Positions 15,245 through 52,109 of a stretch of DNA of 63,598 nt are shown here, piece after piece (within the stretch, counting starts at the first letter, position 1; each line of letters opens with the position of its first letter). Both the position numbers and the translations under genes were made by a program. Source of the stretch: Nitrospirota bacterium (lineage in GTDB: Bacteria > Nitrospirota > Thermodesulfovibrionia > Thermodesulfovibrionales > UBA1546); assembly GCA_016195565.1 (NCBI GenBank), contig JACPZK010000026.1, positions 1 through 63,598 on the forward strand, read 5' to 3'. The notes beneath the pieces were generated by a model. The model made no database searches, was not told the DNA's origin, and was given only the letters and a program-made list of their open reading frames with translations.

Positions 15245-16483
15245 TCAAACAATCCCTTTTACATCCGGTTTTAGCCTGAAATTCTTGCCTCTTCTTATCA
15301 AATCGCCTTCCCTTGCTCCGGCGGGCACAGGCATAAAAACAATATTCTCATTTCTCGCAGTTGTAATATCCATGCCATCAGTATCTTTTACTGATTCAAG
15401 AACAAACAGTTTCTCTTCAAGTCCCGGCGAAAGATATTCTATAGCATCTCCCTTGTCAAGCCTGTTTCTCAGCTCAACCTTTGCAGTCCTGTTTTTAATC
15501 TCAAGGATAATCCCGACAAGCTCGTGGCTCATTCTGTAGCTTTCGCCGTCAAAGTTATAGTCGTTATCAGGCTGCTTGCCGAAGAACATCCCTGTTGTAT
15601 ATCCCCTGCTTGAGAACATTGAAAGCTCTTTTAACCACCTTGGATTAACAGCGTATTTCCCATTTCCGAGGGAATCTATCGCCTCCCTGTAAGTCTTCAC
15701 AACACCAGCAGCATAATTTATGCCTTTCATCCTTCCTTCAATCTTAAAGCTGTCTATCCCTGCATCGCTCAGAAGGTGCAGATGCTCAATCATGCAGAGG
15801 TCTTTTGAGCTCATGATATAAGTCCCCCTGTCATCCTCAAATACGGGAAAGTGCTCTCCCTGCCTTTTTTCTTCCATGAGGGTATAGTTCCACCTGCATG
15901 AATTCGTGCATTCACCTCTGTTTGCGCTCCTTGATGTAAGAAAACTGCTTATATAACATCTTCCCGAATATGAAATGCAGATAGAGCCGTGGACAAAGAC
16001 CTCAAGTTCAAGATCCGTCTTGCAGCGTATCTCCTTAATCTCATCTATAGTGAGTTCTCTTGAAAGCACAAGCCTCTTTGCGCCGAGGGTTTCCCAGAAT
16101 TTCGCTGACTCGCTGTTTGTGATATTCGCCTGTGTGCTTACATGGATTGCAATCTCAGGGGTGCTTTTTTTGAACATCATGAAAAACCCGGGGTCAGAGA
16201 GTATCACTGCGTCAGGCATTGCATCTTTAAGAAACTCTATATATTCTTCCATCCCCTTTAAGTCTGAGTTGTGAGGGAAGATGTTTACTGTGACATAAGC
16301 TTTTTTATTTCTGGCGTGTGCATACTTTATTGCTTCTTTCAATTCTTCGGGTTCAAAGTTGCCAGCCTTGCCTCTGAGGCTGAACCTTGAATCGCCGAGA
16401 TAGACCGCATCAGCTCCATAATGAATGGCTGTTCTGAGTTTCTCAAAATCTCCGGCAGGCGCAAGCAATTCAGATTTTTTCAT
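15245..16483 (-). CDS. U32 peptidase-family protein (YegQ/TrhP-like)
   Basis: 412 residues. LLAPAGDFEKLRTAIHYGADAVY opens the protein, and the family signature lies at ELEVFVHGSICISYSGRC with nearby cysteines (NRGECTNSCRW). DSFKIEGRMKG is also typical. Members of this group act in prephenate-dependent tRNA U34 hydroxylation (TrhP) rather than as true proteases; which function applies here is not decidable. The start overlaps the stop of the CoaE-RibK gene by four bases (ATGA), so the two are translationally coupled. Confidence 0.92.
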   Translation of the reverse strand: MKKSELLAPAGDFEKLRTAIHYGADAVYLGDSRFSLRGKAGNFEPEELKEAIKYAHARNKKAYVTVNIFPHNSDLKGMEEYIEFLKDAMPDAVILSDPGFFMMFKKSTPEIAIHVSTQANITNSESAKFWETLGAKRLVLSRELTIDEIKEIRCKTDLELEVFVHGSICISYSGRCYISSFLTSRSANRGECTNSCRWNYTLMEEKRQGEHFPVFEDDRGTYIMSSKDLCMIEHLHLLSDAGIDSFKIEGRMKGINYAAGVVKTYREAIDSLGNGKYAVNPRWLKELSMFSSRGYTTGMFFGKQPDNDYNFDGESYRMSHELVGIILEIKNRTAKVELRNRLDKGDAIEYLSPGLEEKLFVLESVKDTDGMDITTARNENIVFMPVPAGAREGDLIRRGKNFRLKPDVKGIV

Positions 16484-17508
16484 CCCAAAATTTCCTTTGC
16501 TTTTTTTATATCTTTTTTTATCTGCACTTCCAGCGCCCTTGCATTTGGAAATTTCTTTTCATCACGGATGCGCTTTATAAAAAGCACCTTGATTTTTTTG
16601 CCTAAAAGATTTCCTGAGAAATTAAAAATATGAACCTCAAGACTTAATTCTGATGCGCCGAATGTCGGGTTCTTGCCGATATTAGCTGCGCCTTTATATA
16701 TCTTTTTATTATTTAATGACACCGTCACCGCATAAACGCCTTCTTTGGGAGAATAGCCTTTAAATGAAATGTTTGCAGTCGGGGTATGAAGGAGCTTTTT
16801 CCCCCTTCCAGCGCCTTTAATGACTGTCCCTTCTATTGAAAAAGGCTTTCCGAGGATTTTTGCAGCCCTGTCAACCTTGCCTTCAAGAATAAGATTTTTA
16901 GTTTTCGCCTCTTTTAAGAGTTCTTTGTAAACCGCTGTAACCTGTTTTTTTGTCTTTTCAGGGTTCATGCTGTTATCAATCACAAAATCAGACTTCTTAA
17001 TCTTTTCTTTTATCGGAAGCTGGCATTTGAGCCTTTCAATTACATTCCTTGGCGGAATGCCGAGCATGGAAAGCCTGTTAATTGCGGTAGTTTCTTTGGC
17101 GAATACGGTAATCATCTTATCAAATCTTCCTTCGTATCCCCTCTCAAATATCAAAGGCGCTTCTACGATGAACACCTTGCTTCCATCCTTAGTTTTTTTG
17201 AAGAAATCGTCAATCCTTTCAAAGACTAATGGATGAAGAAGGTCTTCAAGCTTAAGCCGCAGTGATTTATTCCTGAAAATCCTTTGAGCGATTTTACTCT
17301 TATCGAGATTGCCTTTTTTATCAAATACCCCTGCGCCCAAAAGTGCTTTTATTTTTTTTAGGACTTGTTTTTCCCTGAGAAGCTGTTGCACGACCCAGTC
17401 AGCGTCAATCGTAACAGCGCCAAGCTCCCTGAACATAGAAAGCACAGCGCTTTTCCCCATGCCGTAATTCCCTGTCAGCCCAGTGATGAACATAGGATTA
17501 TTATACAT
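16480..17508 (-). CDS. Fusion of dephospho-CoA kinase and riboflavin kinase
   Basis: 342 residues. Residues 1 to about 205 are CoaE: GLTGNYGMGKSAV is the P-loop, IDADWVVQQL and the LLHPLVF helix follow, and EAPLIFERGYEGRFD is the family's E(V/A)PLLFE motif. Residues about 210-342 are the C-terminal flavokinase part of RibF: AAKILGKPFSIEGTVIKG, the PTANI nucleotide loop, NIGKNPTFG, and LEVHIF with the catalytic Glu, ending RIRDEKKF. In ordinary RibF this part follows an FAD synthetase domain; here CoaE takes that place. One protein could thus make CoA and FMN. MFITGL (ATG 17493) is an alternative start. No second RibF piece lies in the window. Confidence 0.9.
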   Translation of the reverse strand: MYNNPMFITGLTGNYGMGKSAVLSMFRELGAVTIDADWVVQQLLREKQVLKKIKALLGAGVFDKKGNLDKSKIAQRIFRNKSLRLKLEDLLHPLVFERIDDFFKKTKDGSKVFIVEAPLIFERGYEGRFDKMITVFAKETTAINRLSMLGIPPRNVIERLKCQLPIKEKIKKSDFVIDNSMNPEKTKKQVTAVYKELLKEAKTKNLILEGKVDRAAKILGKPFSIEGTVIKGAGRGKKLLHTPTANISFKGYSPKEGVYAVTVSLNNKKIYKGAANIGKNPTFGASELSLEVHIFNFSGNLLGKKIKVLFIKRIRDEKKFPNARALEVQIKKDIKKAKEILG

Positions 17509-17604: not shown

Positions 17605-18282
17605 TTAATCATTACTATCTTTCTTTCCTTGATTACATTTATAGCATAGAGTTTGCAAATTATCTATTTTTGATAAACCACCCTTTGCAACAGGGATAAT
17701 ATGATCTATTTCAAGTTTAACGTTTTTATCTTCCTTCGGATTTGCGCCGCATTTGACGCATCTAAAATTATCTCTTTTTAGCACTTTCATGCGAGTTGTC
17801 GGAGATATTGGTTCTCGGCTATTTTTATTTTTTCGTCTATATAATTTTTCTTCGGGTAGTTGTCCTTCTTGAACTTGAACTATAAGTTTTGCTAAATACC
17901 CTAATCCCCCATACATATTTTGATAACTGTTAACTCTAAACGGGAGTTTGTTTTTGCTTAAATATGTTTCAAGCTGTCTATATGACGGTACAGCGTCGTT
18001 TTCTTGCCAACAAAGCTTAAAATGTTTAACCATTTCTTTCAATTCTAATTTACAGCTTCTTTCGGCTCTTATGCCCGCGGCAAGAAGCGCTTTCCCCCAT
18101 GTGCCGAACCTTGTTCTAATTGTTCCAGAACTTGCAATACGATAAGGCCATTTGTCATATTCACGCAGGCCAAAAGTATCTTTTCCGCAGATTTCATGAA
18201 ATTTCTTTAGTGACTGAATAATTTCGGGTTTGGAACATTGGGTTTTCTGTCTATCAATTTTGTATTTATAATTTTCCATCAT
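17605..18282 (-). CDS. HNH endonuclease with N-terminal homing-endonuclease-associated repeats
   Basis: 225 residues. The C-terminal domain is a classic Cys4-type HNH nuclease: FRCVKCGANP, LEIDHIIPVAKGG and LQTLCYKCNQGKKD give two CxxC pairs and the catalytic DH. Two N-terminal stretches, KFHEICGKDTFGLREYDKWP through FGTWGKALLAAGI and KHFKLCWQENDAVPSYRQLE through YGGLGYLAKLI, look like homing-endonuclease-associated DNA-binding repeats. Stand-alone mobile nuclease or relic of an intron/phage; no intron is visible around it. AT-richer than the neighbours, in keeping with transfer. Confidence 0.87.
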   Translation of the reverse strand: MMENYKYKIDRQKTQCSKPEIIQSLKKFHEICGKDTFGLREYDKWPYRIASSGTIRTRFGTWGKALLAAGIRAERSCKLELKEMVKHFKLCWQENDAVPSYRQLETYLSKNKLPFRVNSYQNMYGGLGYLAKLIVQVQEGQLPEEKLYRRKNKNSREPISPTTRMKVLKRDNFRCVKCGANPKEDKNVKLEIDHIIPVAKGGLSKIDNLQTLCYKCNQGKKDSND

Positions 18283-18302: not shown

Positions 18303-18725
18303 TTATAAAACCTTTATCCCCTCTTTTCCTGCTGCGCGGTTGAGTTTGGCGTCTGTGCTTGAAAAATAAACTTCTCCCAGTATCTTGCCTTTCAGGTTGA
18401 CTGCGGATGCGAGATGAATGGAGTCAAAGCCTCTCAGAAGATATTTCTCCGCAATATCTCCGGCTGACCTTATTATCCCGTCTGTTACTTCAATGATAAA
18501 ATAACTTTCCCAATCTCTGTTCAGATCCGCTACAATTTTTCTCAGGGCAGTTATTGAGAAGCCGTCATCTCTTTGTTTTCTTGCAAAGGCAGCCCTTGCC
18601 TCTGCATATGCAATCTTTGAAGCGGCAATAACAGATGCTTTTTGGGTTACATCCCTGACAATTGCCGAGCCTGCTTCTTCAACATACAGCTTTACCAGAG
18701 AACTCGTGTCCAGATAGACGATCAT
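18303..18725 (-). CDS. vapC: VapC-type PIN-domain toxin
   Basis: 140 residues. MIVYLDTSSLVKLYVEE provides the first acidic residue of the PIN nuclease, AYAEARAAFAR the Glu, and RGFDSIHLASAV the late Asp. A ribonuclease toxin. Its ATG overlaps the antitoxin stop by four bases, the usual coupling in these operons. Confidence 0.9.
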   Translation of the reverse strand: MIVYLDTSSLVKLYVEEAGSAIVRDVTQKASVIAASKIAYAEARAAFARKQRDDGFSITALRKIVADLNRDWESYFIIEVTDGIIRSAGDIAEKYLLRGFDSIHLASAVNLKGKILGEVYFSSTDAKLNRAAGKEGIKVL

Positions 18726-18991
18726 CTTCTGTCTTCAAGGACTATCTCTGAAACGGTTTTTCCCTTAATCCTTACAGGGTTTCTGCTGCCGGAGGGCTTT
18801 CCGCCCTTCCACGAAGCAAAGCCCTCATTAACGAGAGACAAGAGATGCGAGTCTTCCTTTGCCCTTTCAACCGGAGTGATTGTTGCTATTACAGTCTCTC
18901 TCTCAGTAATCAGGATCTTTTCGCCCTTTTTAACTTCGCGGAGATAGTGGCTCAGCCTGTTTTTAAGTTCCTTTACGCCTGCTGCTATCAT
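18722..18991 (-). CDS. Phd/YefM-type antitoxin
   Basis: 89 residues. AGVKELKNRLSHYLREVKKG and ILITERETVIATITPV are the DNA-binding N-terminal Phd fold (type II antitoxin); the tail, rich in Gly, Pro and Arg, is the likely toxin-binding segment. First gene of the pair with the PIN toxin. Confidence 0.9.
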   Translation of the reverse strand: MIAAGVKELKNRLSHYLREVKKGEKILITERETVIATITPVERAKEDSHLLSLVNEGFASWKGGKPSGSRNPVRIKGKTVSEIVLEDRR

Positions 18992-51285: not shown

Positions 51286-52109
51286 ATAGCTTTAATCCCT
51301 GCCTCTTTGAATCCCTTTGCCCTGAAAATGCAGCTGTCGCATTTTCCGCAAGGCGTAACGGTGAATCGGTGAATCGGTGAATCGGTGAATCGTTTTGCTT
51401 CTGCCCCTCTGTAACTTTTCACTTTTAACTTTTCACTTTTAACTTTTTTAGGCTGCGGGTCATAACAGCTCCATGTCAGGGAATAGTCCAGCCCTAATTC
51501 TTTCCCCTTTCTAATTATCTCTGCCTTTGTCAGATGAAGAAGAGGGGCTTTAATGCTGAATCTGATTTTTCCTTCCACCGATGCCTTTGTTGCAAGGTTT
51601 GCCATTTTTTCAAAGGCCTTCAGATATTCGGGACGACAGTCAGGATAGCCGCTGTAATCTACCGCGTTTGCGCCGATAAATATATTCTCAGCCTTAAGCG
51701 CCTCTGCCCATCCAAGCGCAAACGAAAGAAAGATTGTGTTGCGTGCAGGGACATAGGTGACGGGAATAGAGCAGCAGGACTTTGTGGAAATTTTTTTTAC
51801 CACTGAACTACTGCACTGCTGCTCTTCTGCTCTATTTTTCGGCACTTCCATCTCTGATGTCAGAGCCGAGCCGCCGATTGCTCTTAAATCAAATTTTATT
51901 ACGAGATGTTTTTTTACTTTTAATGATAGGGCGACTTTTTTTGCCGCCTCAAGCTCTATTTTGTGCCTTTGATTGTAATCAAAGCTCAGGGCATAAACTT
52001 CATAACCCTCGTGTTTTGCTATTGCTGCTGTTGTGGAGGAATCTACCCCGCCGCTGAGAAGGACAACCGCTTTTTTAGCGTTGTGCCTTCTGCTTTTAGT
52101 AAACGTCAT
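51282..52109 (-). CDS. queC: 7-cyano-7-deazaguanine synthase
   Basis: 275 residues from ATG 52109 ([20 protein letters not shown]). [13 protein letters not shown] is the PP-loop and the zinc site is [11 protein letters not shown] with [13 protein letters not shown]. Makes preQ0, the precursor of queuosine in tRNA. Two separate repeat-derived stretches interrupt it in frame: about residues 93-115 (family D) and about 221-250 (four gaatcggt units plus family C), the second between the first and second zinc-ligand Cys. All four Cys and the flanking motifs remain, so function is plausible. It overlaps the upstream gene's end by 14 bases. Confidence 0.92.
51360..51448. repeat. Four tandem gaatcggt units and family C repeat in queC
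   Basis: ggtgaatcggtgaatcggtg continues for four units of 8 bp at 51360-51392; then acttttcacttttaactttt at 51411-51448. Both are read in frame. Confidence 0.9.
51768..51834. repeat. Dispersed repeat family D in queC
   Basis: tagagcagcaggactttgtg ... actgctgctcttctgctcta, an inverted pair, encodes [15 protein letters not shown]. Confidence 0.85.

Follow-up and report, generated by a model that had tools for sequence, protein, structure and literature searches.

Dephospho-CoA kinases of the CoaE family (PF01121, TIGR00152) are known as part of multi-domain proteins with two kinds of partner, the UPF0157/GrpB domain in mycobacteria and PPAT in the eukaryotic PPAT-DPCK CoA synthase (PMC2765170). 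The mycobacterial partner is a folding domain, while in the CoA synthase it is the enzyme that acts one step before DPCK in CoA synthesis. Riboflavin kinase (RFK, PF01687) is combined with an FAD-synthetase domain (PF06574) in RibF. FAD can also be produced by archaeal-type enzymes such as RibL of M. jannaschii and EhFADS of Entamoeba, and for the latter organism it was biochemically shown that an archaeal-type FAD synthase replaces the missing bacterial-type FMN adenylyltransferase (PMC11423594).

The gene described here lies in a window of 63,598 nucleotides, the whole stretch of DNA analysed, from a member of the Nitrospirota (contig JACPZK010000026.1, assembly GCA_016195565.1), and joins CoaE to riboflavin kinase. 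Like the mycobacterial protein and the eukaryotic CoA synthase, its product carries CoaE within a multi-domain protein; unlike them, it has a partner from a different cofactor pathway. It shares the RFK domain and the preceding linker helix with the RibF proteins of its order and differs from them by the FAD-synthetase domain, in place of which it has CoaE, with FAD synthesis probably assigned to another gene. Searches of open-licence PMC papers yielded no description of a CoaE-RFK protein; as far as could be checked, the component families are known while their combination and its history are new. The locus comprises the following features.

17500..17505, minus strand: TATAAT -10-like box, 6 nt before the probable start codon, conserved upstream of the fusion genes.
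17491..17493, minus strand: probable start codon ATG (codon 6 of the listed ORF), homologous to ATG/GTG in other fusion and coaE genes, directly behind TATAAT.
16480..17508, minus strand: coaE-RFK fusion gene, one uninterrupted ORF of 342 aa as listed, 337 aa from the probable start at 17493.
16966..17487, minus strand: CoaE (dephospho-CoA kinase) domain, residues 8-181 (Pfam/NCBIfam), with P-loop GNYGMGKS and DAD.
16885..16962, minus strand: single continuous helix predicted in the AlphaFold2 model, residues 183-208, spanning the junction.
16855..16908, minus strand: RibF-derived linker, residues about 201-218, from the alignment with RibF of sister families.
16486..16854, minus strand: RFK domain, residues 219-341 (Pfam), with PTAN and the EVHI strand.
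15245..16483, minus strand: downstream U32-type peptidase gene (a name read from the sequence), whose start overlaps the fusion stop by 4 nt.

The CoaE half covers positions 2-176 of the 180 of the PF01121 profile with 121.5 bits (Pfam cut-off 27 bits), and the protein matches the NCBIfam dephospho-CoA kinase model TIGR00152 with 121.6 bits (cut-off 65.55). Both matches are full-length and above the curated cut-offs and, together with the GxxGxGKS P-loop and the DAD motif, they place this half in the CoaE family, to which the fusion adds a C-terminal riboflavin kinase. The second half covers the whole Flavokinase profile PF01687 (1-124 of 124, 140.4 bits, cut-off 19.6 bits) and carries the PTAN motif and the glutamate of the E-V-H strand, whose roles are known from RFK enzymes, and is thus assigned to the riboflavin kinases. 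In the fusion protein Pfam detects neither a PF06574 FAD_syn domain nor a PPAT domain, so that it is neither a bifunctional RibF nor a eukaryotic-type CoA synthase, and the NCBIfam RibF models match its C-terminal part alone, each below cut-off. The P-loop is retained in all 11 aligned fusion proteins (of the GNFGMGKS/T type in G008) and DAD in 10 of them, G009 having DTD. Among solved structures, the first half is closest to the CoaE of A. aeolicus (2if2) and the second to RibF-type proteins; the AlphaFold2 model of the fusion has a mean pLDDT of 92.4 and a pTM of 0.88, and Foldseek retrieves CoaE and RibF structures with it. The sequence-only reading had recognised a complete CoaE replacing the FAD-synthetase half of RibF in a fusion with riboflavin kinase, with the RibF linker kept, and both points are borne out: the linker AAKILGKPFSIEGT aligns with that of sister-family RibF proteins.

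The domain content indicates that the protein would have both kinase activities, the N-terminal CoaE converting dephospho-CoA and ATP to CoA and ADP and the C-terminal RFK converting riboflavin and ATP to FMN and ADP. Since these two reactions share no intermediate, channelling is not expected, and one shared polypeptide does not by itself amount to functional coupling of CoA and FMN formation; a deletion between adjacent genes could account for the fusion. It is conceivable, though improbable, that the junction helix lets the two kinases influence each other, with flavin or ATP bound by one half affecting the other, for instance, and that this lineage thereby co-regulates its supply of CoA and flavin cofactors.

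The start of the gene deserves attention because the listed ORF reads the TATAAT box (17505-17500) as its codons 2-3. TATAAT is found shortly 5' of the start codon in 12 of the 12 fusion genes examined, whose more distal upstream sequence varies from genus to genus, and also 5' of coaE in families f4, f8, f10, and f11; the coaE genes read from f9 and f12 lack it. The chance level of TATAAT before ATG in the window is 14 of 2244 ATGs. As the box precedes all 12 fusion genes and in several of them stands outside the frame, the true start is probably the ATG at 17493 (codon 6), giving 337 aa. The arrangement suggests that the box is an own promoter of coaE or of the fusion and that the mRNA is leaderless; the fusion would be expressed from the former coaE promoter, probably as such a leaderless mRNA. 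Across five families TATAAT is kept before coaE or the fusion (loci L005-L016, L018-L020, L022-L025, L027-L029, and L031).

The fusion is a property of the Nitrospirota family of the window (f1), in which a strong match is present in 13 of 16 genomes and the frame is complete in 11 (G000, G001, G003, G005, G007-G012, and G015); an RFK-loop insertion splits the match in G005 and G012 and leaves the frame intact. It is incomplete in G006 and in G014, where it lies at a contig end, and only 83 residues of it are present in G002, at the edge of a contig; neither the fusion nor CoaE nor RFK was found in G004 and G013, both fragmented genomes of the family. At the thresholds used, the fusion is absent from the rest of the order (176 genomes searched) and from the other members of a phylum-wide sample of 396 genomes. 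Among 84,980 species genomes, a peptide-pattern scan sensitive to close relatives only retrieved full-length fusions exclusively in Nitrospirae-labelled MAGs and in one labelled Nitrospinota; the latter locus (L036) matches G005, of the window's own genus, and its label may be wrong. Fusions may also exist in other phyla. The ratio dN/dS is 0.10-0.25 in the CoaE and RFK halves alike (ten species pairs), and both halves evolve under purifying selection.

The neighbouring U32-type peptidase gene is present at most fusion loci. Upstream of the fusion gene, the window contains an HNH-type gene and a PIN/antitoxin-like pair (positions 17605-18282 and 18303-18991, minus strand), and the HNH gene was not seen at the other fusion loci examined. 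At seven loci (L006, L007, L008, L009, L010, L013, and L015) one RFK loop is extended by in-frame insertions resembling translated repeat elements, such as SPIHRFTHSPLY and RYRVSGIRYQGK; an SPIHRFT motif is also present in translated frames elsewhere in the window, with a similar motif at 51380-51388 (minus strand). The fusion at L009 (G011) is 78-89% identical to those of genus g1 in its CoaE half and only 62-64% in its RFK half, the identity shifting near the domain junction, and a recombination between fusion genes is probable there.

The order's other families offer a model for the origin of the gene. In the sister families f4, f8, f9, f10, f11, and f12 coaE is located directly 5' of a full ribF on the same strand and, where measured, 40-111 nt separate the coaE stop from the first FAD-synthetase motif. 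Alignment with the sister-family proteins places the junction at residue about 200/201: the CoaE part extends to the last CoaE helix and is followed by the RibF part, which starts at the end of the SSSxxR motif closing the FAD-synthetase domain. Given that the two genes are adjacent in sister families and that the junction coincides with the end of this domain, the likely origin is a deletion of about 0.5 kb that kept the reading frame of a coaE-ribF pair; everything from the coaE stop through the spacer to the end of the FAD-synthetase domain would have been lost, joining the last CoaE helix to the RibF linker helix. The RFK halves of the fusions form one clade with a support of 100/99; for the CoaE halves no single clade is resolved, and two f8 rows fall among them without support. 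The fusion would have arisen once, in the ancestor of family f1.

The loss of the FAD-synthetase domain raises the question of which enzyme makes FAD. The window's genome (2.3 Mb, 33 contigs, 99.1% complete) has a single CoaE match and a single Flavokinase match, both belonging to the fusion gene, and a search of it for a separate CoaE, RibF or RFK gene or for PF06574 returned nothing above cut-off. PF06574 is present in none of the 16 genomes of family f1 and in 146 of the 160 genomes of the rest of the order. The genome thus has no FAD-synthetase domain of the RibF type; of its weak PF06574 matches, that on contig C19 is an RfaE2-like protein and that on C5 a RibL-like protein. The earlier proposal that FAD synthesis is left to another gene seems correct, given this archaeal-type FAD synthase homologue, and it most likely passes to the RibL-like protein on C5.

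The RibL-like protein belongs to a cytidylyltransferase-like family and carries the HxGH nucleotidyltransferase motif; its best solved relative is 3glv, which we take to be a Thermoplasma volcanium entry, and among its matches in plasmid records the most significant are haloarchaeal genes annotated as FAD synthase. In a tree of 48 rows, from which the S. aureus TagD row was left out, the archaeal FAD synthases (Natrinema, 3glv) and the RibL-like proteins form a group separate from TagD and RfaE2 with a support of 99/96, a value to be read with a long-branch warning, as the three archaeal references alone represent their group and lie on long branches. RibL-like proteins and archaeal FAD synthases share LG(Y/H)DQ, LGYDQ in the C5 protein, where TagD and RfaE2 have xGxDW. 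By tree and motif the C5 protein thus falls in the same group as RibL of M. jannaschii and EhFADS, from which it differs in that its gene is bacterial, stands in a genome with the CoaE-RFK fusion, and accompanies an intact RibF in sister families. Two cysteines are common in the bacterial RibL-like set and may or may not correspond to those of M. jannaschii RibL; EhFADS is active without the two conserved RibL cysteines (PMC11423594).

The RibL-like gene is present in 15 of the 16 genomes of family f1, the one lacking it being 66% complete, and in 26 of the 160 other genomes of the order (f12, f4, and G130 of f10), all of which keep PF06574; in the RibF proteins read from f12 and f4, the motifs of the FAD synthetase appear intact. 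It adjoins atpE/atpB in f1 and at most f12 loci and was therefore probably present in the common ancestor of the two. Its coexistence with an intact RibF in a sister family makes it probable that the gene is older than the loss of the FAD-synthetase domain. With an archaeal-type FAD synthase already present in the lineage, which in family f1 would now convert FMN to FAD, this loss would have been tolerable. Beside the intact RibF of f12 and f4 the gene might have another role. As a separate observation, a short ORF on contig C21 of G000 (L062 1504-1728, minus strand) resembles the N-terminal part of nicotinate-nucleotide adenylyltransferase; a second match to this family is located some 2 kb away, and the short ORF is possibly a broken duplicate.

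Taken together, a bifunctional CoaE-RFK protein, formed once by deletion in a coaE-ribF pair, and a RibL-like protein making FAD are a joint explanation that we hold with considerable confidence, and three others were weighed against it. An assembly error, a frameshift or a chimeric MAG could have joined two genes, and the genome is indeed a draft of 33 contigs; nevertheless, the same fused frame and junction recur in many genomes, assembled separately and by several projects, in proteins 58-89% identical to that of the window and with purifying selection on both sides of the junction. Because independent assemblies carry the same fused frame, the fusion is real, the frameshift that had been named as a possible refutation is dismissed, and the chance of an artefact is negligible. 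It has also to be considered that one half is inactive and kept as a folding or docking module, for which the UPF0157 domain, involved in the folding of M. tuberculosis CoaE, is a precedent (PMC2765170). Each half is, however, the genome's only representative of an essential activity, and each matches its family over the full length, has a low dN/dS, and has retained its motif, the P-loop or PTAN. An inactive half is very improbable.

The remaining alternative accepts the fusion and assigns FAD to an unrecognised enzyme, to a PAPS-reductase-like protein or to FAD uptake, the RibL-like protein being another nucleotidyltransferase. The co-occurrence of the RibL-like gene with an intact RibF in f12 and f4 would agree with it, and so would a glycerophosphodiesterase-like gene that adjoins the RibL-like gene in genus g1; this neighbour, however, is seen in g1 only, while the atpE neighbour is general, and the protein clusters with annotated archaeal FAD synthases and not with TagD/RfaE2. 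Eukaryotic FAD synthases belong to the PAPS-reductase family, of which contig C22 encodes a member with a weak 42-residue match to a solved FAD synthase; its best NCBIfam match is nevertheless CysD, though far below cut-off, and this CysD-like protein was rejected as the FAD synthase. Another source of FAD is on the whole unlikely, and the RibL-like protein is preferred.

The fusion can be regarded as a naturally occurring swap of domains between two pathways of cofactor synthesis, and its likely evolutionary steps are visible in living relatives: adjacent coaE and ribF genes, the presence of an archaeal-type FAD synthase, and then the loss of the FAD-synthetase domain together with the fusion. 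It also predicts a function for bacterial genes of the archaeal FAD synthase type, which annotation may easily label as no more than generic nucleotidyltransferases. A pathway reconstruction based on RibF would wrongly score the whole family f1 as unable to make FAD.
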